A stretch of DNA of 64,000 nt from Halichondria panicea (Eukaryota > Porifera > Demospongiae > Suberitida > Halichondriidae): contig NC_087391.1 in assembly GCF_963675165.1 (NCBI RefSeq), positions 4,948,646 through 5,012,645 of the forward strand, in the 5' to 3' direction. The notes under the pieces were generated by a model. That model ran no database searches. It saw nothing but the letters and a program-made list of their open reading frames with translations, and was not told where the DNA came from. Each line of letters opens with the position of its first letter. The stretch's first letter is position 1. Both the position numbers and the translations under genes were made by a program. Of this stretch, positions 3,957 through 57,100 are shown one piece after another.

Positions 3957-6900
3957 ATGTCTGGTCCCTCGCTAGAAGATTTTAAACCAGTGAGTACAGA
4001 CTTTGAAAATTGTCTAAAACATGCACACCACATGTGTACAGAAGCCTATTTATTGTAGCTTGTTGTCCTACCCTATACCCATGCTTTAAGGTGCCACGGA
4101 ACCCTAAAGTAAGCATTGAAATCAATTTATGCCCCTTAGATTTGTATAATTTTGATGTGGAAGGTGGGCGGGGCTGGTATGTTACCATTGTATTGAGCCA
4201 CACCCATCTAAATGTATTACCGTACTATTTTTCTGGTGAAAAAAGCGAATGAGCCAAATCAGCAGAAAAATTGACCCTTTGCGATAACTATATATTGCTT
4301 TCTGGCAAGGATCGTGTGTAATTACCAGTAGCACTGTAGGCCTACTAGTTTAGGTTTTGCGATTTTATTTTTGCGAAGTGATCAACACTCGCAAAGCGTG
4401 CAAAACATTACATTCTCGGTGATATAATTTTATTGCAAAGTAAAAAAAAAAATTTGCAGAATGATTGCAGGACAGTAACAAAAATGACATGTGAGTAGTG
4501 TGATTGAGGTCGTGTCAGTAGTGTCCTCCTATGCCATATATCACTGGGTACATGTATTGGTGGCGGCTGCCTGTGTTGTATTCACCCAGGATAAATTGTT
4601 TGATGGCTTTCTTTGCTTTCTTCCATGTTCCTTTCTTGTTAGTTTTCTCAGTGTTGGCAGCTTTATCACTGGGTGTGTTTTGTTCTGAGGTGGGTAGAGT
4701 GTTGTATTTGACCATCTTGTTGCAAGAGTTAGGATTGCTTGGTTGTTTGATTGCTTGCAGATCAGAGGCAGTTCGTTGTGTTTTTGTTTGTTTATGGTTG
4801 GTTGCTTGAAGCCAGCTGGTTTTTATAGTGCTGCGAGAGGAAGCCTTGGTATGCATCATAGGAAGCTATGAATAAACGATCTGTACAATGAATCCAATTT
4901 GCACTTGTTCAAATGACGGCAAAACCAATGACCTTTGCGATTAGGTAGGTGCATAGTACACTCTCACCTGCACCTGTTGTGAGTCATTGTGAGTCATTGT
5001 GGGTCATTGATCTCACACTGATAATATTTATTAGCTATCATTGAAGTTGCATTCCATGTGTGCTTATCTATATGCCCCTTTGTTTGTTTGCAGGAGGCCT
5101 TCACCCTCGAGAAGTATGTGGAGAAACTGGCTCAGCTTAACCCGGACACTGGCCTGGGACCACTCAGCAAGAGCAAGTCAAAGCCATTCGAACCTCAGGT
5201 ACTGTGTCTCAATAGAATGGAGAAGTGTGTCACCTGATTAGTAGGCTGTACATACTGTACTGGAGAAATTGTAGATACTCACTTGTTAGTGATCAATTGT
5301 AGCATAATGTCTAACCACGCATTAAATCATAAAATTGTTGGCTGGTGTCATTGATTTTCGCCCTTGGACCATATCCATGGTATTGGACCAAAAATTAGTT
5401 AATCTCCCAAATATGAACATTGATGACATCATTTTAAAGGCAGAAAACCAAAAATTGTTTAAATTGCATCAACGATGATTCATTCGTTTCTAGCTTATTT
5501 TGAGACTTTGGCTCCTCATGTACTAACCCTGCCCCTCTCTCAGGTTCTGTTAGAGTCGTTTGAGGCGAGTATGCATGTTCTAGAGGATCTGACTGAGAAA
5601 AACCAGAGGAAGGTGGACAAGTTGGAGCACGTCTGTGTCAAGAGAGAGGAGGAACACAGGAACAGAATCAAAGATCTGGACTCTACTTACTCGGTGGGTG
5701 ATCTTTAGTGTCTCTATCTGTCTGGGGGGGGGGGGGGGGGGTCATTTTGCTTACTTTAGATGTACATATGCAGTGTAATTCACGTACACATACATGTACG
5801 TGTTCTAGAGATGGGCTAGGGCTTTTCGGCATTACGACATGCAGCCATAATTTTCTATACACAGGAGTGCATGCATCAGCATAGATAGTGTAACAGCCTG
5901 TATAATTTAGAAACAGTGCATGTACATGTATAAACGCAATCTGAAGCTGAGATTCAGCTCTAAAAAGGCAGCTTTAATCTTTGTTACTGAACATTACAAT
6001 AATACACATGCAAGTGATTTGGTCTCCCCTCCCTCCATCAGGATGCATTTACTGAGTTCCAGGCTCTGGAGGAGAGGATAACCAACGTCTCGACCAAGGT
6101 GGTGCATTTGGGGGACCAGCTGGAGAGCTTGAACCACCGTCGAATGCGTGCCGTGGAGGCCCAGTCTCTCATGACCTACCTGGGAGAGTTTGAGGAGAAG
6201 TCCAAACCATCCATTCCCATGTTCACAGATCCTGCTCGAGTGAGACTTCAGATTGAGTATTTGTTTAGAAGGAAGCTATAATTATAATAGTCTTATTATT
6301 CCTTCTATTGTAGTATACTGTAAACAACGTCCCTGCAGGTGTCTCACACAGTACATTGTACATTATGACCTTTTGATTGTACGATACTCCATATACCAAC
6401 CACCTGTGTAAATAATCTTTGTTGTGAGACGTTACAATAATTATAAAACCACCGAGGGTTTAGTGCTCTCACGGACTAGTTTTGTACAACATGTGTCATC
6501 ATGTAAAGACAATACTACAACTTTATGGGTTCGATTGTTTCGTTCTGTACAGAAACTCGATGCTGCTGACCTCATCTTCAAACTGTACACACTGTCTCGT
6601 GAGCTACCCTCAGAGAAAAAGTAAGCCACTCTGTCTCTCTATGTCATGTGATAATCACACTACTATCATGTGACCTACAGATACACGAATGTGAAACAAA
6701 ATATCAATGCCAAGTTTGCGGAGACTGAGAGTCAACTGGTGGATGGATTCATTGATTCACTACAGTCCTTGGACACTCGGAGAATGAAAGAGTACGCACA
6801 AGCACTGCAGTCATTTAATTTGGTGAGGGGTGTCAAATTGTGTGGGGTCTGTAGCTTGTACATTGTACATGTACGTTCTAGGTCACACTAAAGCTAGGTG

Positions 6901-9900
6901 GTTGGGGGAGCTCTTTGGAAGTTTCTGTAGCACCAGATTCTAGTTCAACTCCCTAATTGATCGATGGAGGTGTTTTTGTTGTTTAGATCTCTGCTTAATG
7001 TGTCTCATTTTGCTTGCACAGGGAACAGCCAGAGTGGTGGAAAACTACATTGTTCACAACATGCCTGTAAGTGGAGTATTGCACATGTACTTGCATGGAG
7101 GCACGTGTACTTGCATGGAGGCACATGTACTTGCATGGAGGCACATGTACTTGCATGGAGGCACGTGTACTTGCATGTACTTGCATGGAGGCACGTGTAC
7201 TTGCATGGAGGCACATGTACTTGCATGGAGGCACATGTACTTGCATGGAGGCACGTGTACTTGCATGGAGGCACGTGTACTTGCATGGAGGCACATGTAC
7301 TTACCTGTAAAGCACAGTGGATCAGATTTGTTTGTGATGTGTCCCCTTAAGTCAGTGTATGTTCAAGGTGTTGTATATATATAACAACTAGCATGCATCC
7401 TGTCAACAACATTATATGCTGTTGACAGGATGCATCTTTTAGTTTTGGGACTGTTAAAAAGAGTGTGTGCACGCACACGTACATGTATACATGTATAAAC
7501 GTACATTGTCTTTGTCTGCAGAAAGCCACTCATTACAGCTGTGCAGACGAGATGTTCAGTGTGGTCGAGGGAAAGTGTAGAAAGGTAACGCTTCACCTCC
7601 CCCACTTCTTATTTAAATGTATGACGGACTACGTCCCTTTGATTCTCACAGGCACATGATCAAATGGTTGAAGTGTTTCATAATCCTGATGTGGTCTTGA
7701 TCAAATTTCTGCAAGCTATTGTGGATAAAGTATTAGGAGTAAGTCTGTCATTGCCCCCACCTCGTTGCTTAGGGTACAGTATTAGGAGTAAGTCTGTCAT
7801 TGCCCCCACCTCGTTGCTTAGGGTACAGTATTAGGAGTAAGTCTGTCATTGCCCCCACCTCGTTGCTTAGGGTACAGTATTAGGAGTAAGTCTGTCATTG
7901 CCCCCACCTCGTTGCTTAGGGTACAGTATTAGGAGTAAGTCTGTCATTACCCTTACCTCGTTGTTCACACTATGTGGTAACTAGTAGAGCACAGTGTGTT
8001 ACAGTTTCTCCACTCTTGCAGAAGTATATTGACCAAGAGCTGCAGGGCTTAAAGTTGCAGTCTGGGGACAAGGAACGCTACTTGGTTCGACTTCACGCCC
8101 TCTACCAGAAGTGAGTTGCCCCTGTAATTAGCTGGCTCTGCCTTCTAAGCAAGTTATAGCCTAGCCTCATTCCCGCCCCAACTTTTCTCTATTGTAACGC
8201 TTCCGAGAAAAATCGGCCTGGGGACGAGACTAGTTTATATAGCCTGGCCCTAGTACATGTCATGATATGATAAAGCCACCCACCATACACCAGACAATGC
8301 GTTGCCTGGTGTATGGTGACCTTTAAGTACCACTGGTTTCTCTGCAGGAGCATGGCACTTCAGCAGAACATTGGCAAGTTTGATGCCAGCATTGAGCAAT
8401 CCTTTCTCTCCAAGATGATACGAGTCAACCTCTTCATGAAATATCTCACCTCTTACTCTGAGTAAGTATATACGTGTAGCACTTTCAATAAATGTTTAAT
8501 TGTTGAACACCACATATTTTGGCTTTTTGAAAAACTTACAATATATCCCTTGCAATGTCCCGATGTATACAGGCTTTCGGTTATGTGATTGAGACTGTTC
8601 ACGTTTGTTTTGTGCAGGATGGAGCTTGCTCACCTGAAGTTCCGTTGTGACCATGCCCTCTCTGACTTCCAGGACATGGTCGGCATCTCTTTGAGACCAG
8701 GAGGAAAGTGAGACACACACAACTAACGCTCGTAATACAACTATTAACGTCATTTTGTTGGCATATACATGTAGTTCACATGTAAAACACGTTTACTGGC
8801 TGAGCTATTAGGTACTCGCTACAGTCATAACATGCTACTCACTGTGTGTGTCTTCTTCTAGACTACATATAGTTATGTCCTCCCCTACTTCATACACACA
8901 AGTATGACCCCCCACCCTCACACACAGACCCCCTGCATTGCATGACCTCCTCCCTCATACACATAAGTATGACCCCCCACCCTCACACACAGACCCCCTG
9001 CATTGCATGACCCCCCTCATACACATAAGTATGACCCCCCACCCTAACACACAGACCCTCTGTATTGCATGAGACCCCCCTCATACACATAAGTATGACC
9101 TCACACACAGACCCCCTGCATTGCATGACCTCCTCCCTCATACACATAAGTATGACCTCACACACAGACCCCCTGCATTGCATGACTCCCCTCATGCACA
9201 CACACACACACACACACACACAGGAGTGTGACTATATCTCAGGGTGATCCTGGAGAGACGTTTGTGTCTCAGGAGGTGTGCACTAGCATCCTGCACGAGG
9301 CCAAGGGCAGCATCAGACGAGCACAAGATGTAAGTCTATAACATAATTATAGCAGGGGGACATACATGTATACATGTAAGCAAAGAAATACATACTACAA
9401 TTCAATGACAGTTTCAGCTTCTAATAATCTTTCTTACTAGCTACAAGTCTGTTTTTCTGTATGTCTTTTACTATTTCTTTGGTGCCTGGTAGCGAGGGTT
9501 TTTGGGGTCTTTTTGTCTTGAGTGGTTGTCTAGATCAGGCTTGTCGCCCGTGCCACCGTAGCGACAGTTATATCCTTTGTATTTGGCATTGTTGGGATTA
9601 CAAGTATCGCTGTGGTTATCCAGGTCAGCTTTGGTTCTTGCACCTGTGTATTTAAATACCTTCACTAGTAGACATTGTTGGACTGTTTGAGAGACTTGTT
9701 TGTTAAAAGAGAGAGGTTCTGTAACTTTGAGGATATACTTCTCTATAATTATTATAGTAGGGCAATCAATTTTCTGTGCAAAGCTTGCTAGAAACAGGTT
9801 TTCAGGGAAATATTATGAAAATGAATATAGTTGAGTTGCACCTGCACATTCTGAATACCGCATAGCGTGTAATTTTTGTGGGGCAAAATATTCGTGGTTG

Positions 9901-12900
9901 GAGGTCTGACCACGAATATTTTACCCACGAATGAAGCGACCTTGCCTACCTTTACCTGCAGTGCCAGCAGCAACCACGAAAATATTACCCACGAAATGTC
10001 TCATTATTGCTGAATCACAAATATTTTGTCCCCCGAAAATTACCCGCTATACGGTACTGTTATTTGGGAATAAGATTCTTATAGGGGAGAATAATCAGAA
10101 GTGGCGTTGGATTTGCCTTTGTTGCACGAGGCCAAGGGCAGCATCAGATGACACAATAATAATACTAATCACTTACTTTATATACAATGTATGGCAGGGG
10201 TACATGTACAGCAAATAAATACAACATCTGTATGTTGCTTAGCTACATGTACATTACTACAGTTCTCACTAGCAATTCAATAACAGTTTCAGCTACTATG
10301 ACAGGTGCCAGATTATAATAAGATTATGCAAGACCCTGTACCACTCATTTTGCTTTGAATAGTTGTTTTCTTCTGTGTATACTATGAAATGTAGAGCATG
10401 CAGTCATTACTAAGAAGCTTACCACTGACTGTATTTGTATAATGATAGGGATATTGCTTATAATTATAGCTACTAACATGTATATACATAATTATAATAC
10501 TTCTCACTAGCAATTCAATGACAGTTTCAGCTACTATATAATAGTCATATTCTTTAGTTCGATTACTACAAGTCCATTTTTCTGCTGTACTAGTTTTTTC
10601 TGTCGTGCTATTTCTTTGGTTCCTGGTAGCTAGGGTGGTTGGGGTTCCCTGGTTGGCATGGTTGTCTAGATCAGCCTTGGTTCCCGTGCCACTGTAGCCA
10701 GATTCGTGTCCTTTATATTCGGGATGGTTGGGGTTGCACTGGTTGGCATGGGGGGGGGTTGTAGCTTTGAAGGTCTATTTTCTGTGACAGGTGCCAATGG
10801 CTAGCTATATATAAGTTACGAGCATTCCTTTTATGAATAGGCTATATATATACATAATAATTATACTACATCAGAGATCATACTTAGCTGTAAATAAGTG
10901 TTTTCTTATGTAAACGTAGAGCATGCAGTCATTACTCTGATTGTACCTGCACTAGCTCCCTCACTATTATATAATTGATCTGGGAACAAGAGCCATAAGA
11001 ATAGGGAGCAGCACAATTATTTGTATATAGCGAATTTGTAGGCCCATACTTGATACCTGTATGTTACATATAATACACTTATACTACAGTTCTCACTAGT
11101 AATTCAATGGCAGTTTCAGCTACTAGTCATATTCTATAGTTCAGTTACTACAAGTCTGTTTTTCTGCCACACTATTTCTTTGGTGCTTGGTAGCGGGAGT
11201 TGTTGGGGTTCCCTTGGTTGGCATGGTTGTCTAGATCAGCCTTGGTTCCCTTGCCACTGTAGCCAGGGTTAGGGGGCGTAGGTCCTTGATATTTGGGACT
11301 GGTGGGATTCAACTGCTCCCCGTGGTTGTCCAGGTCAGCCTTGGTTCCTGTGCCAGAGTATGACATTGTGGGATTGCTTTGACTTGCTGGATGAAAGAGA
11401 GTGGTTTTGTAGCTTTTAGAGACCTAAGTTTGCTGTTGAATTCTTTTTTGATTCTAATATGTATAGTTCTTTTATAGGCACGCAATTTTCTGTATGAGCT
11501 GATAAGAAAAAGTTTTTCAGGGAAATATGTTATTATGACAGTTCACTTGAAAATGAATATAGTTGAGTTGCACCTGCACACTCTGAATAATATTATCTGT
11601 TTTTTTAAGGGATAATATATTTATTGTGTGATATCAAAATTAGGGTGACTGCAAAAATTCACCTTCATTATTGTTTGAAGACACACCTTCCCTCACTCAC
11701 TATATCCTCACAGTGCATGATGCTGTACATGTATCATGTGTTCATTCAAAGTATCTTAGTACTACCTGTTACTACATGTACCTGATGATTAGTACTACCA
11801 TAGGTAACGAAAAGAGCTTCTTTTTTCTCTTTTTGTTTATCTATGGTAGTACCTGCTGGCTTAGTACTACATGCTGGTAGGTAGAGCATGCGTGCACGAA
11901 TCACTAATGGTCAGTGTCGTTGCAGTGGTCAGGTGATAACTGTCCAGGTGGCCAATACACTGCACTTGTAGTGATTTGTGCACGCATGTCACCTCCTCCG
12001 GTTGGTGCATGTAGGTATGATAGTTGTTGCATGAATATCATTAAAATGGCCACGAATTATATTGAGAATAGCATCAAAATTTATGACAGTGAAATGAGTT
12101 ATCTAATAACACGCCATATAGGAACAACACACAATTCTTAGTATAGCAGTAGCTAGTGGCTTAAATTTGCCACTGTATTATAGCTATACATACATACGTG
12201 CGAGTATATTATATATACTTCTCACTAGCAATTCAATGGCAGTTTCAGCTATACTAATCATGTTCAAGCAAGTTCAGTCAAAGTTTTTTTCTGCCGTATT
12301 AGTTCTTTGGTTCCTGGTGGCTAGGGTGGCTGGAGTGTTCGGGGTTCCCTTGGTTGGCATGGTTGTCTAGATCAGGCTGGTCTCCCGTGCCACTGTAGCC
12401 AGATTCGTGTCCTTGATATTCGGCATTGTTCGGGTTACACTGGTTGGCATGGTTGTCCAGGTCGGGTTGGTCACCTGTGCCACTGTATCCACCTCCACTA
12501 GACATTGTTAGACTGCTTTTGACAGGGTTATCTTGTTCTGTGACTTTAAAAGAGGCTGGCTTGTAGCTCTGAAGATCTGATAAGGCCACTCCAAGTGATA
12601 CTCTGGTTTCTGGTCCACCGCCCGCATCAGATTTTATTCTTGGATTTCTATCTCATTATTGGATTTCTATCTCATTATTTCTACTACGCATGCGCAGAAT
12701 GGTCCATGTGGTACAAAATAGTATGATTAATGATATTCATTTGCAAAATAATGAGATTCATAAGGTGAAATTGATAATGACATAATGAGAAAAGCCGCCC
12801 GCCCGCATGCAATTAGAAAAACTTCAGTACCAGAAACCAGAGTGTCACTTGGAGTGGCCTAATAGGGAAACCTCAATTGTGTGGTTTGCTATATACAGGT

Positions 12901-15900
12901 TTGCTACAGGTTTGCTAGCCTCAACTTCATGTTGTGGTTTGCTACGCCCAGTAAGTACAACATTCCTTATAATGATGGTCAGCTATAATATATAGATAAT
13001 GCATTCCATAGAAAGGCTCTCTGTGTTGCAAAGATCATGCAAGACCCTGTACCGCAACTCATTTTGCTGTAACAGGCGTTTTCTGAATGTAGAGCATGCA
13101 GTCATTACTCTGATTGTACCTGCACTAGCTCCCTCACTATTATATAATTGATCTGGGAACAAGAGCCATAAGAATAGGGAGCAGCACAGTTCATAGTATT
13201 TGAATTGTTTATTAATAGGAGAGACTTAAATGCCCTCAGTCATTAGGCATTGTACATTATACTTCTCACTAGCAATTCAATGGCAGTTTCAGCTACTAGT
13301 CATATTCTATAGTTCAGTTTACTACAAGTCACGTTTTTCTGCCGTATTATTTCTTTGGTGCCTGGTAGCGGGAGTTGTTGGGGTTCCCTTGGTTGGCATG
13401 ATTGTCCTTATCAGCCTTGGTTCCCGTGCCACTGTAGCCAGGTGTGTGTCCTTTATATTCGGGATGGTTGGGGTTACACTGGTTGGCATGGTTGTCCTTG
13501 TCAGGTTGGTCTCCTGTGCCACTGTATCCACCTCCACTAGACATAGTTAGACTGCTTTTGACGGGTTATCTTGTTCTGTGACTTTAAACGAGACTGGCTT
13601 GTAGTTTGGAGGTCTATATTGTCAGACAACTTTTCACACGGGTTATCTTCTGTGACTGACTGGCTTGTAGTTTGGAGGTCTATGTTGTTGGACTGCTTTT
13701 GACACAGGTTATCTTCTTTTGTGACTGGCTTGTAACTTGGAGGTCTACGTTTACATAAAGAACCTCTCGTGTGGTTTGCTATATACAGGTTTGCTACAGG
13801 TTTGCTATAGGAACAGATGCCTTAACTCTTAAGTTTCATGTTGTGGTTTTCAGGTTACAAAAATCATGCAAGACCCTGTATACCACAACTCAATTTGCTG
13901 TAAATAGATAACATCTGTTCCAGTCATTACTCTGATTATTGTATATCAATGCTAGGAACTGGAGCCATAAAGATGCCCAACAGCATAATTATTTATAGCA
14001 ATAAATTGCTTATTAGTAGCATTAATTTGGAATTTGTAGGCCCTAGTGAGTTGCTCACTCTTCTCACTTATGCCCTCTTATTGGGATACAGATGTAGTAG
14101 GTGGCCCTGTGTGTTGTACTAACAAGCTTATCACTGACTGTATCTGATCCTTTTCAGCTCCTGGGAGAGAGGGAACTGTCAGAGCTGGTACAGGGAGTGT
14201 ACTTTGCCATCCTGGACAAGGTCTGCACTGAGCACTTCCACACTGCACTGGATATAGGACAAAACGGTACCATCAATATTAATTAACATAGTGCCCTCTG
14301 TTCTTTGTGTATATATCTGCCTGGTTTGAGTGTGTTGGCCGCGTATTGTACATGATACATGCATGTACATTAGTAGCCACATACCTTGAGTGTCTGTCTA
14401 TACAATACTAAAGTGTTGATATCCTACCTCCCCTCCTTCCCCTTGTGCAGTTGACCCCAAGATGTCCCCTGTTGGTCACTTCTGTGTGGTAGTGGGTAAC
14501 GTCAACTGTAACATGCACCTCGTGGACAAACTGTTCAGAGAAGCCATACTACCTTGCATACAGTAAGTACCTCTGTAAAAGGACGCCCTTTATATCACGG
14601 TGCCTCAGTTAAGAGACACCCTCGATACCAAGGCTGGGTCCTTCACCCATTGTGTTCCCCCATGCAGTATTCCCTCAGCGGCTACCAACTGTGTTGAGAA
14701 GAAGAGAGATGTCATCTCGAAACTTGAGGCAAAGATAGAGAGTGGAATAGAGAAGTAAGCCACCCCTATATATATGCAGTTGCAACATGTGTGTGTGTGT
14801 GTATACTATAAGCTGTATAATCTACAGTCACCCGAACCACAGATTGAAGGAACTATTTCTAAAAATTACAGGTTGTGTGGTGTTTATAGGGTGGACGATT
14901 GGCTTGGAACTTACATTGCTCGGCAGATCATAATATTTATATACAATGTACATATATATTGAGGTATCTACTGTGTGTACAGGAACCTTGGCTGGATGGT
15001 GAGCACTGTCAAGAGCATCCTGGTAGCCTACCAGAAGAAGACAGACTATAAGCCTGAGGGCATAGCGGTGGCAGAAGGCTCTCAGGTACAGTACAGTACA
15101 TTGTTCGCCCTCGTGCTTTTGCCTGTAAAACACTCGGTCTCATGCTACTATATATAGCCAATCTGAGATGCCGTAATTTAAGCTTTTGCCATAACTTAGG
15201 CTTCCACATTTTTATGATTCCTCACCTCCACCACCTCCTCCAGGCGTGTAGCCGCTCTGTGACGTACATGAGCCAGTGTTGTCGTGTGCTGAGTGAATCA
15301 CTAGATGGTAAGAACTTGGAGGCAGTGCTACTTGAGCTGGGCACTCGACTGCACAAGGTCATCTTCGAGCACGTCCAAACACATTCCATTAATGAAATGG
15401 GTGAGCCTATAATTATATACCTCTATACCTTCAAGCCCAAGTCCACCATTAATTTTAAAAATGAAAGCACCACAGGTGCTGATGCCTCGGTGGAGATGCC
15501 AAAGTTACATAACATAAAGCTACTAATAGCTTTTATACACATGATAAACAAGATAAATTTTGCTGCATGCAAGAACTCAGGGAGGGGGTAATGATCAACC
15601 ATGATTGCTGTTAAAAACGATCTATGCCAAAGTTCAAGTCTAAAATTTAATGGCTGCATTAGCAGAGCCTTGCAGCTCTCTTCTCACTCTTGCAGCTACC
15701 AAATAGCTAGCGTTCTAGTGCAGAGCTAACTACTAAGTAGAGTAGCAACACTCGGTAAACAAGTTTGGCTACGTGCTCTTCTGAAAAGGCTGCAATGGCA
15801 TTCCAAGAGCAAAACTAGGCATAACTCGATGAACGAAGCATTATTTTGCAAATCCACGAATTGAAATCCAAGTAAACATGACTAGAAGCCTATAGAAACT

Positions 15901-50215: not shown

Positions 50216-53200
50216 TCAACGTTTTAGCCTGGAGTTCTTCAAGACCAGCATATCCCCCACCTCACTGATCTCCTTGAGAGCCTGCAGTTACACATAGAGC
50301 CATGTATTAAGATATGCCATGTATTAAGGTATGTCATGCAAGCATCAATGGTGCTAGCATTGCAGGCACAGTGCCGGTAATATCAAATAGTCTATTTAGG
50401 GAGGTCAAAATCAACAGTGTATTAAACTACAAAGCCACAAGTGCAACTAACTATGTACATGCATTATAAGTTAAGAGAGTACTTACAAAGTTCAGCATGT
50501 CTTTGGTGTGTGAGGCAGACAGACAGATCCTGGCCCGTCCTTCTACCAGGGAGGTGGCGGGGAAACCAACTACCACGACCCCAATCTTACGCTTGAGCAG
50601 TTCTCGAGAAAACACCCTGCACAAGGGAAAACAAAAACAACTACATGTACTAGCTTTTAAACGACCAACAACACTCTGAATTATTTTTTCTCGTAAACGT
50701 CTGAATTAAAAAAGCCACTCTAAAGAGCATTGTTTTGTTTTCGTAGAGATAAATTATTTTTAGTAGCACTTTTACGGTGCAAACACGTAAGCAGACTTAC
50801 AATTAGTGTAGAGAGAGCTTTTCTTATAGCCTCTATAATTTTACTTCATTGTTGACAAAATTAATATGCTCACGCAAATTTGGTGTACTGATAGAGAAGG
50901 ATTGGTACAACGGGAGAGTCCTCGTTGCCATACACGATGAAGCCCATCTCATGAAGTCTCTTACGAAAGTACCTAGAGGAGAGAGAAGTGCACGATCAGT
51001 AGCTGACCACAGTAGCTCACGTGAAGATTAAATACACACCAGATAAAGATAGTCAGGGTCAAAAGGGCTGCTTAAAATCTGCTTCCGGAGGACTTTAGTT
51101 GCATTCTGATCATCTTTTTCTTTGGTACATTGAAATTAAGGAGGTACCAAAGAAGAATTAGATGATCAATAATTAGGAATGCAATTAAAGTCCTCTAACC
51201 TCTGGAATCAGATTGTAAGTAAGACCTTAATTTGACCCTGACTATTATCTTCCTCTGATAACACACTACACATCGTAAACATCCTATAAGGAGGACTCTG
51301 AGCCTACCATATAAATGGGACTCTCATTCAAATCGTGCTTCTAATTTATAGCATAATTAAGAACTTCAAACAATCTTCATCCACATTCAAAAGAACTCCA
51401 TTATTTAATTACCTGCTGTTCTCGGCAAGCTGCTTGATTCTCCTTTGACCTGCAAAGGAAATGAAGACATCAATTCAGCCTCTCTTTGAGAGTGAGTCAA
51501 CAACTTACCCTCGTCTGTGCCGTCCTTGCCCATAATGATGCTCATGGAGCTGATGATTTGCTGAGCCACTGGACCAGGCATACCAGTAGCGTAGGTGGTG
51601 GCGTGGGAGTAAGCTCTTATATGGCTGACTATCTCCTGCAAATCCACTAGTGAGGTCCATTTGATTACGTATGTGTCTAAACTCACATGAGTAGCTGCAA
51701 TGTATCCACCGGATGCACCAAAGCTCTTTGTGAATGTTCCCATCATGATATCGATATCGGCTGGGTCCACCCCCCAGTACTCAGCCATGCCCCTTCCTGT
51801 ATCCCCCATCGCTCCAATGCTGTGAGCCTCATCAAGGTAGAGGTAAGCCTGCAAGTTTTAATTTTTAATATTAGTAGCTCTAGCAGCACAATAAATATTT
51901 AGTGTAGCACGGTTTCCCTCTTTCTTTCCTCCTTTCTTCCCCACTATCTCCCCGCAATTTCTTTCCCAGGTGAACCAAACCAAAACTACAAACCTTATAC
52001 TTCTTCTTGAGAGCAATGACTGCTGGCAAGTTGGGACAGGAGCCCTCCATACTGCATGGGAGTAAACTTTGTTCGAGTATGCATTCTGTTACCAACCCTC
52101 TACTCACACCCACACCCACACCCACCCTCACACTTGAGCACAAATGGCACAGACTCCACCCACCTGTACACTCCTTCTAAAACGATGAGTATCTTCTTCC
52201 AACGTCGATGTGTCCGCAGCTGACCGTTAAAAATGGCATCTTTTAGAGCTCTCTCAAGATCATCCACATCTGCCAGGTGGATGGGGGATATGTAGCCATT
52301 AAATGAACGCAAGAATGTTAGTATAAGCAAGCAATAATACAAACAGTCGAAGATGATCTTGGTTACCCTTGGTTACTAATACATCGTCTTACTGTTGTGC
52401 TTGAAAGTCTTGATGGTTGCACCTGAGAGTCGACAGCCAAGGATGAGAGAGGTGTGGTTTAGCTCATCACTCAATATCAGACAACCCTGCAACAACAGGC
52501 AAAGATCACCATCAGTGTATAATAATTATGACCTAAGAGAGTGGGCGGGTGGTTAGCACCGGAATGTAAACAAACATGAAAGGTCACTCAAAACTGTGGC
52601 AAAATGATAATTTAATCGGTACTTGGACAACACCTACCTTTCCCATTAGGGCTGGTATGTTGGTGGAGTTGGTTGCAAAGCCCATGCCAAACACCATAGC
52701 AGCTGGTTTCCCTACAAACTCTGCCACAAGATGCTCCAGCTCTTTGTGAATAGAGAGTGTTCCTGAGACAAGAGACAATTCAATAGTCAGTCTATCGGGT
52801 AGTTCACCCTCTCCTGACTCACCTAGATCCTTGCGAGCACTGCAGGACCCCGCTCCGTACTGACGAGTGGCCTCCTGTGATGCCTCTGCACACGGCCCAC
52901 TGCTCTGAGCAAAACCAAGATAGTTGTATGAGCCGAGGTTGAGGCAGCGAGTGGTTGTTCCAGTGTTTCTGTACGTAGGAAGATTTACACACAATGGAAA
53001 AAAACAGCATTAAATTCATAGCAAGCTCCTGTTTTACAAAGTGACCTTAGGCACTAGGCGATGCCTTTTAATAATGCAGATAGATTATTGCGTGCATTGT
53101 ATGCAGGCTTGTACAAATATTACTAAGAGTTACACAATAGCTCAAACCTGAAGGTCCAGTTGTAGTCATCGCTTTCACGATCGACGAGCTCAAAATACGC

Positions 53201-54191: not shown

Positions 54192-57100
54192 ATGACCATG
54201 ACATCTATGCACAGCAAGCAGTCAAGCGGGAGTGAAATGGAACCTCAAATAAAGAAACGCCGTCCAAGAGCCAAAGAATCATTTGAAGAACCTCCATTGT
54301 TTGAAGAAATCTGTACATACATCACTTATGGAGTTCTTGCTGTTGTTGGTTATGTTAGTGATTTTCTAAGGTTTGTTGGAGTCAAGGAAGGACCTAGACT
54401 GAAGAATGTGAGCTGTACTTTTATTTTTCTGCAATTTTTTAAAGTTTTATGCATGAATATAATTATGATATAAAGTTATGCCACACCTGTTAGACTTAGC
54501 AACTAGACTAGAATGCCTGAAATTAGTTCTGCATAGCTAAATTCATATGACATTCGCAACTGTACTTTTATGAATGTGTTTGTACTTGTGGGCTAGGGCC
54601 GACCCTACGGTGAGATGTGTTATCACTCATCTCACTATAATTATGTTACTATGGTGTGATATGCACATGCACATGCATGACATGACAGGCGCTATACACG
54701 TCGGCAGTGTGATTTTTATCTTATTTTGAGTTTTGGATTACGACCACAAATTGTCCAAGGGCATTAAACATTAGCCTATAATACATATTTGCTAGGATTG
54801 GCTGGAAAACCACATCAATCATTTTGCGGAAAATATACATGTGAATGACGTTGTAACGGTTTGTAGTTATGCACTCGTCGGATTCCGCTTTTTAGTGTTA
54901 CTCCCGGCCTATCCTAGCAACTTTTTACATTGCTTCTTGTTGGGCATTTCCAGGAAACAAAGCCGTATTGGTGTGGCTTTTATCTTGTGTTTGATTACGA
55001 TCGCGTTGTATTGTACCCCCTCTGCAGGACAACTTCAAAATGAACAGGGATTACGACATGTTCTACTTTCGCAATATATTTCGCAGAGCTCAGGACTGTT
55101 TTGAGCGACCAGTTGCAAGCACTCCCGGACCTTACATTGACATTTGGGATCGAGTGAGCCATGACAACAACTGGACCTTTGAGTAATAATATTCAATTAT
55201 TGGACTGTGTGTTTAATGAGATGCAATTATTTCGCAGATTAAAAAGCTCTTCCACTCGCTGCCTCAACCTCGGCTCATACAACTATCTTGGTTTTGCTCA
55301 GAGCAGTGGGCCGTGTGCAGAGGCATCACAGGAGGCCACTCATCAGTACGGAGCGGGGTCCTGCAGTGCTCGCAAGGATCTAGGTGAGTCAGGAGAGGGT
55401 GAACTACCCAATAGACTGCATGACTATTGAATTGTCTCTTGTCTCAGGAACACTCTCTATTCACAAAGAGCTGGAGCATCTTGTGGCAGAGTTTGTAGGG
55501 AAACCAGCTGCTATGGTGTTTGGCATGGGCTTTGCAACCAACTCCACCAACATACCAGCCCTCATGGGAAAGGTATAATTATATTTTTTATAAACGTGTT
55601 ATGACACACATTTTTTGTTTATATATAGGGAAGCCTTATCATTAGTGATCAGCTGAATCACACTTCTCTGATTCTTGGTTGTAGGCTCTCTGGGTCTTTA
55701 ATAAGAACCTTTAAACACAATGGTAAGAGATGATCAGGCAGTAATGTATACTGCATTTGTTAACTTAATCGTACTTTGTTGCAGATATGGAGGGCTTGGA
55801 GAAGGTACTTCGCACGGCAATCATTCAAGGACGTCCGCGTACCCGCAAACCATGGACTAAAATAATGATAGTTGCCGAGGGAGTATACAGGTAAAGGAAT
55901 TATCTTAGTTTAGAATCTGAGTATGTGTAGTTGTTTGTATTCACTATATGTATTCACTGTTTATGCTTTCATTTCCACAGTATGGAGGGTTCTCTTGCAA
56001 ACTTGCCAAAGATTGTTGAGCTCAAAAAGAAGTACAAGGTAACTTACCAGCACATTCTCATGATTATGATACTTGTTGGTTCGTAGGGAGCATCTTTGTA
56101 AGACAATGTTGCCTATGTGTGACTCTTTCCCCTGTGGATAATTCAATGCAGGCTTACCTCTACCTTGATGAGGCTCACAGCATTGGAGCAATGGGGGAGA
56201 CAGGAAGGGGCGTGGCTGAATACTGGGGGGTGGACCCAGCCGATATCGATATCATGATGGGAACATTCACAAAGAGCTTTGGTGCATCCGGTGGATACAT
56301 TGCAGCTACTCATGTGAGTTTAGACACATACGTAATCAAATGGACCTCACTAGTGGATTTGCAGGAGATTGTCAGCCATATAAGAGCTTACTCCCACGCC
56401 ACCACCTACGCTACTGGTATGCCTGGCCCAGTGGCTCAGCAAATCATCAGCTCCATGAGCATCATTATGGGCAAGGATGGGACAGACGATGGCCAAAAAA
56501 GAATCCTGCAGCTCGCCGAAAACTCGAGGTGATAAGATTATACCAACATAATAATAACTGAGCTCGTTATTATTCTACTAGATGCGTTGCAAGCCTTATT
56601 TATTACAAGCACTTGTACAGCAACAATATAAAATGAAGAATTAAAATTGAAATTGAATAATAATGAAGCTGTATATCTGCCAAGCCTGGGTGATTCCCAT
56701 ATTAATACAATAACTGATTGTCTCTTTCTGTGGCTGTGTAGGTATTTCCGTACCAAACTTCACGAGATGGGGTTTATTGTGTATGGGAATGAAGATTCTC
56801 CAGTTGTTCCAGTACTCACATACAACACTACCAAAACAATGTAAGCAGTTGCCAGTCAGATGTTGCAATCTTTTAGTTTGCTGTCTTTCTTTCTTTCTAG
56901 CAACTTCTCTCGTAAGATGCTTGAGAGGAAGATAGCTACTGTCTGCGTGGGCTATCCAGCCACACCCCTTTCTGAGGGGCGGATCAGAATATGTCTGTCC
57001 GCTGCTCATACAAGGGAGATGCTTGATTATGTGAGGAGCAATCATGCCTGTATTTGTGCCATTTAATTAATTACTTTTTTATACGTGCCCTTTTAATTAC

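Follow-up and report, generated by a model that had tools for sequence, protein, structure and literature searches.

A tandem cluster of two-unit microprotein genes in an EXOC5 intron of the sponge Halichondria panicea, with relatives in archaea, plasmids and prophage-like contigs

Among sponges, prokaryote-derived genes have been reported in the genome of Amphimedon queenslandica (PMC4784904). In the part of that report considered here, prokaryote-like genes reside within the animal genome, as is proposed below, and some of the peptidase genes are clustered, which suggests tandem duplication; the cases described there encode enzymes (metallopeptidases and HMG-CoA reductase, among others), unlike the microproteins presented here. 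Here we describe a cluster of short open reading frames (ORFs), each encoding two copies of a repeat unit, within a 64,000-nucleotide window of the demosponge Halichondria panicea (contig NC_087391.1 of assembly GCF_963675165.1, positions 4,948,646 to 5,012,645; coordinates below are those of the window). The cluster lies on the minus strand of one intron of EXOC5/Sec10. We read it as tandemly amplified and partly decayed genes of a microprotein family shared with archaea of the family Nitrosopumilaceae, Pseudomonadota plasmids and prophage-like contigs, with the animal copies of archaeal origin, and give this reading roughly even odds (about 0.5).

The closest relatives of the animal proteins fall into three groups. 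The ORFs of Nitrosopumilaceae archaea (metagenome-assembled genome PL23a_bin.18, with relatives in genomes G042 and G006) possess a unit of the type YSGTG..ADLDNHANQ, as in the animal; they are standalone ORFs of 35-39 codons for which no family name was found, and have a single unit, whereas the animal copies have two. The RefSeq hypothetical proteins WP_268748063.1 (Pseudomonas nitroreducens plasmid) and WP_261890207.1 (Vibrio cortegadensis plasmid) share the core DN[HR]SNQLNxNNDAY; compared to the animal copies, they have one unit, an acidic W-containing C-terminus and no YSGTG start. The plasmid member of Cereibacter starts with MGRYSG. Four ORFs of IMG/VR contigs (L011, L014, L017 and L042) comprise two units in 56-62 codons and resemble the animal copies in the core; however, they differ in a tighter spacing of the units, in YANQ for HANQ in the first unit and in a GVS..THTQ-like N-terminus.

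The cluster consists of five tandem copies of the two-unit ORF (termed A to E), of which C, D and E are open. An earlier note, made from the sequence of the window alone, had described five minus-strand copies, three open and two broken, in one EXOC5 intron, which is confirmed by ORF, repeat and genome searches. Copy E (13347..13544, 65 codons) has the full consensus core in both units and is the best preserved. Copy D (12299..12505, 68 codons) carries a 9-nt in-frame insertion in unit 2, which has lost its final Y. In copy C (11172..11366, 64 codons), unit 1 is eroded, with GEQ for ANQ. In the broken copy A (9471..9675), the frame of the homologous ATG (9673-9675) is closed by a stop 7 codons on, no ATG occurs in the frame of the motif, and the copy terminates in two stops; the likewise broken copy B (10608..10753, approximate ends) is missing its 5' part and has a disrupted frame in unit 2. 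An alignment of the eight units from copies A, C, D and E spans 29-33 residues and has seven invariant columns. The consensus core is fully present in E1, E2, D1 and C2 (copy and unit number) and eroded in C1, D2, A1 and A2; the motif, which the earlier note described as kept, is not retained equally across copies, as unit 1 of C and unit 2 of D show.

The regular expression D.DNH..[QT].[ND]P has eight matches across the six frames of the window, versus none in 50 pooled mononucleotide shuffles; the recurrence of the motif exceeds chance. Searches of the whole genome (131 Mb, 39 contigs), in which the counts returned by the tool are lower bounds, placed the unit at one locus. With copy E as query, copies A to E were the sole places at an expectation value (E) <= 0.001. 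An archaeal relative as query gave nine places at E <= 1, every one of them a unit of copies A to E, and a relative of the prophage type produced a single weak hit, located on a different contig (E 0.67) and taken as chance. Downstream of copy A, on the minus strand, sits a conserved 3'-flank element (9398..9431; repeat family D7, six copies), the other copies of which are at 10273-10306, 10511-10544, 11100-11133, 12229-12262 and 13273-13306. The 3' flank of copy E, used as a genome query, gave five matches, all inside the cluster locus, and missed the element at 9398. Conserved flanks had been offered as a sign of real genes; that argument is rejected, because tandem duplication copies the flanks as well.

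The animal proteins matched nothing above cut-off in Pfam, NCBIfam, PHROG or PDB, in agreement with the earlier note, which knew of no named family. Sub-threshold echoes of an ArgC domain appeared in both Pfam and NCBIfam. The candidate, the ArgC/semialdehyde dehydrogenase dimerisation domain (PF22698), was rejected: the three animal proteins scored 14.5-22.7 bits against a Pfam cut-off of 27, and a match of this type was absent from the six relatives checked. The echoes in PHROG were weak (E 0.14 and 0.46). The prokaryotic and phage-contig relatives examined likewise matched no family model above cut-off, a prokaryotic profile gave a single PDB match (E 0.033, taken as chance), and the motif strings yielded no description of the family in the open-access literature. 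Hydrophobic residues (AVILMFWC) make up 9-12% of the proteins and form no hydrophobic segment, which upholds the claimed absence of a membrane segment; the unit is hydrophilic, and the residues N, Q, D, H, G, S and P account for 57-75% in eight members. The AlphaFold2 model of copy E, built from 10 sequences, is of low confidence (predicted local distance difference test 53, predicted template modelling score 0.22) and falls below what a fold search needs; such scores are consistent with either disorder or an overly thin alignment.

Relatives were sought in prokaryote genomes, plasmids, phage records and IMG/VR, and, among eukaryotes, in this one genome. The profile search for relatives of the repeat, which the earlier note had proposed, found members in archaea, viral contigs and plasmids. 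Their common core is DN[HR][AS][ND]QxNPNxxxY; in an 18-row alignment the core N, Q, N and Y are invariant, and elsewhere single members deviate (for example NSNN or NENN for NPNN). A pattern scan with the unit profile across a collection of genomes from 84,980 species returned 71 stretches, among them a single one that codes for a relative, an ORF of 35 codons in PL23a_bin.18, MGKYSGTGDKADLDNHANQLNSNNDEYAGSDKDEE (L006:4992-5099). It is 66% identical to the query unit, as confirmed by tblastn, and over ~30 residues its identity to the best animal units amounts to 66-70%. A profile of the animal units and this ORF was matched by 10 genomes, PL23a_bin.18 included, among 250 of the archaeon's family. 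One such example, in G042, reads MTNTNISIGGYGGTGDQDDLDNHSDQCNPNNDEYDGYQD; a few of the archaeal ORFs are devoid of an in-frame ATG. A later profile, built partly from the ORFs of the previous search, matched 12 of 250 genomes of the family and 8 of 398 genomes of the phylum (the ORFs of G407, G139 and G099 were left unread).

In IMG/VR, pattern scans revealed 24 distinct contigs, some of which encode identical proteins; the motif is part of a small ORF or of a terminal tail, and many are two-unit ORFs. Membership was judged by reading the ORFs, and 5 of 8, 19 of 41, 6 of 6 and 4 of 4 stretches in the respective scans were assigned to the family; four of the 24 contigs (L019, L021, L031 and L051) have only a variant YANQ unit. 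By eye, some of the two-unit ORFs lie near terminase-like or ParB-methylase-like ORFs. The single-unit form was found in five of 72,556 plasmids at E <= 0.01 (two of Pseudomonas and one each of Vibrio, Cereibacter and Thioclava), and ten further records matched at E 1 to 10. For three of the five members (Pseudomonas hygromyciniae, Cereibacter and Thioclava) the PLSDB table, in itself not complete, lists no separate gene. The 50,697 phage records gave no convincing member and one chance match at E 10, and the low-complexity filter may conceal some. Back-translated animal profiles against IMG/VR returned 57 and 108 stretches and no relative; the NPxNxAYW scan returned 27 stretches with five family members, none of them new; and plasmid searches with an animal or Bacillota-type query gave nothing convincing. 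Judged from these sequence comparisons, the unit is a member of a microprotein family that is common to archaea, bacteria and an animal and has no name in any of the libraries searched. Of the earlier suggestion that the cluster is a lone undescribed system, the lack of a name holds; its solitude does not, given the relatives in archaea, bacteria and prophage-like contigs.

The unit is found standalone, doubled, or at the end of larger open frames (247 residues in L008; 194 codons from stop to stop in L125). Because of this modular occurrence, it might be a portable docking peptide with little structure of its own, the conserved core of which would be the contact surface for a partner; we offer such a docking or binding role as a tentative and rather unlikely proposal. 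An acidic C-terminus resembling SRGxDERPxDW was observed in L010, L126, L113-L117 and L070, and is common to Pseudomonadota plasmids, phage-like contigs and the archaeon G529; it is taken to be a second conserved module of a subfamily.

Local alignment of unit D1 with the relatives gave scores of 131 and 111 against the archaeal ORFs of G042 and G001, compared to 58-85 against seven other archaeal ORFs and 48-87 against the nine members from bacteria or phage contigs. For all 18 relatives the real score exceeded the best of 500 shuffles (z 5.3-18.3); the similarity of the unit to its relatives goes beyond composition. In a tree of 30 alignment columns, which was built without unit D2 and copy B, the animal units grouped with five of eight archaeal and two of ten bacterial sequences at a weak support of 73/87, and most forks were unresolved. 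Since the highest D1 scores go to two archaeal ORFs and the tree groups the animal units mainly with archaeal ones, transfer from an archaeon appears to be the best-supported origin, albeit a weakly supported one. Sponges commonly host Nitrosopumilaceae symbionts. The ancestral gene would have come into the animal lineage from a Nitrosopumilaceae-like archaeon and been inserted in the EXOC5 intron, where it would have been retained for a time as a gene, and later duplicated as decay set in.

Comparison of unit 1 with unit 2 within a copy (21 codons) revealed an excess of synonymous differences per site in all four copies tested, with B left out (Fisher p from rounded counts: 0.007 for E, 4e-7 for D, 0.015 for C and 0.005 for A). 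Because the units differ mostly synonymously, the two-unit protein was formerly constrained by purifying selection, in the animal lineage or in a donor. The GC content is 52-54% in C, D and E versus 36-39% in the flanks, a coding-like contrast. All three open copies have an A at position -3 of the ATG, and the length differences between copies are 12, 9 and 9 nt.

Several observations weigh against our reading, as regards both the origin of the genes and their present state. In the 30-column alignment, the animal units form a single clade in only 22% of bootstrap trees, and the D1 scores of archaeal and bacterial members overlap, those of G042 and G001 aside. The sampling was tilted to archaea, the bacterial chromosomes being covered by one pattern scan. 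Vertical inheritance, or transfer from a bacterium or another eukaryote, may instead account for the copies, and the doubling of the unit may be independent in the animal and in bacteria. Between whole copies, the ratio of nonsynonymous to synonymous substitution rates (dN/dS) is 1.10 for D-E, 0.97 for C-D and 0.82 for C-E, and 0.60-0.75 for the open copies against A. Fisher tests of the whole-copy comparisons (p 0.65-1) give no sign of present purifying selection among the copies, and comparisons of the same unit between copies likewise reveal no significant constraint (p 0.07-1). Two of the five copies (A and B) have broken frames. That a frame is open proves little by itself, because 40% of simulated E copies remain free of stops after 26 random substitutions. 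Part of the constraint between units 1 and 2 may date from a donor.

The earlier note had named dN/dS near 1 together with frame breaks, with related genomes in view, among the grounds for abandoning real genes. Both are found among the copies, but the comparison of the two units reveals old purifying selection. Present function of the open copies is doubtful, because dN/dS among them is 0.82-1.10 and two copies are dead. A rival explanation is a dead remnant, in which a gene that once was useful, whether or not it came by transfer, persists as a decaying and productless array only through tandem duplication with the intron. The dN/dS near 1 between C, D and E, the broken copies and the eroded core residues in unit 1 of C and unit 2 of D are all in keeping with such a remnant; on the other hand, three of the five frames are open with start codon and -3 A retained, the length differences are all multiples of three, and the two units bear a mark of constraint, though possibly an old one. 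We consider this explanation plausible, if somewhat on the improbable side. The likeliest account is a once-useful gene with tandem copies now under little constraint, among which copy E stands out as the candidate for an active gene. A more active version, in which a module circulating in archaea, bacteria and prophages was captured by the animal from a Nitrosopumilaceae-like archaeon and amplified, and in which copy E, if no other, is still expressed and serves a purpose such as the handling of microbial symbionts, would be distinctly unlikely.

An ancient eukaryotic family passed on by vertical descent, with the prokaryotic members either derived from eukaryotes or equally old, would fit the spread across archaea, bacteria and prophage-like contigs. 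It sits poorly with the single locus found in this genome, the patchy occurrence in archaea (10 of 250 genomes) and the top scores, both of which belong to ORFs from a single archaeal family, and is considered unlikely. Cargo of a mobile element, a transposon or a miniature inverted-repeat transposable element (MITE) that incidentally carries the ORF, is suggested by two long inverted-repeat pairs (I1 and I2) within the intron, yet these do not bracket the copies, and the genome-wide search for dispersed copies found the ORF and its 3' flank at the cluster locus only, so that this candidate was rejected as very improbable. Nor is it at all likely that the transcript rather than the peptide matters, by interference with EXOC5 splicing: the copies are indeed antisense within the intron, but the similarity to prokaryotes is at the protein level.

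What is new here is a family with members in archaea and bacteria as well as in the animal, and an origin of the animal copies that is probably microbial. A cluster of orphan-looking animal ORFs has opened the way to a microprotein family without a name, found not only in an animal but also in archaea, bacteria and prophage-like contigs, with members that are short, testable and easily overlooked by annotation. If the transfer is true, it would be a case from archaeon to animal, and identification of a partner would reveal the role of a 35-residue, probably disordered module.

Some of the prokaryotic members have mobile or defence genes nearby, namely AbiEi and GmrSD (G042), an IS240-type transposase (G001) and a ThsB-type TIR protein (Vibrio). 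When the neighbour ORFs, rather than the microproteins themselves, were scanned with PADLOC (E <= 1e-8), 77 models matched among 112 neighbour ORFs of 12 stretches, versus 4 among 87 ORFs of 11 control stretches. The 25 models listed each match one ORF and bear seven names, probably for about five proteins; given such redundant models of few proteins, the excess of defence genes near members is suggestive but not established. A two-gene toxin-antitoxin or defence pair was considered and rejected, as no one partner is conserved and the neighbours differ: when six downstream neighbours were compared, a relationship emerged between the two from Pseudomonas (23% identity) and between no others. 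These two Pseudomonas plasmids also share an upstream helicase-like ORF (45%). Archaeal members lie near similar-looking transposase ORFs at L006:5117-6241 (IS240-type DDE domain) and L064:1658-1993 (by eye).

EXOC5/Sec10 is the host gene of the cluster, with PF07393 matches on both sides. The intron containing the cluster (9330..14157, plus strand, ~4.8 kb) was delimited by eye from the splice-site consensus. Upstream, the region 6562..6819 (plus strand) matches PF07393 positions 2-69, interrupted by stops and hence not a single clean exon; downstream, an exon region at 15241..15402 (plus strand) matches positions 504-557 and the PDB chain 5h11_A, labelled as an uncharacterized protein (E 1.5e-8). 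A 29-nt piece of EXOC5 exon (9292-9320) recurs within the next intron at 10123-10151 with 97% identity (repeat D18), likely a trace of local duplication. The two inverted-repeat pairs of the cluster intron (44 nt at 84% and 35 nt at 94%; 9856-10056 and 12580-12863) look like MITE-type elements. Within the EXOC5 gene region, 6944-7384 is repetitive, and its plus-strand frames give tandem HVLAWRHMYLHGGTCTCMEA-like repeats. Elsewhere in the window, two very similar ORF pieces resembling serine palmitoyltransferase 2 lie in opposite orientation, at 51405-51857 (minus) and 56020-56532 (plus), possibly an inverted gene duplication; the plus-strand piece matches structures of Serine palmitoyltransferase 2 (7k0i, E 1.9e-37). 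One further ORF of the window matches laminin beta (E 4e-22).

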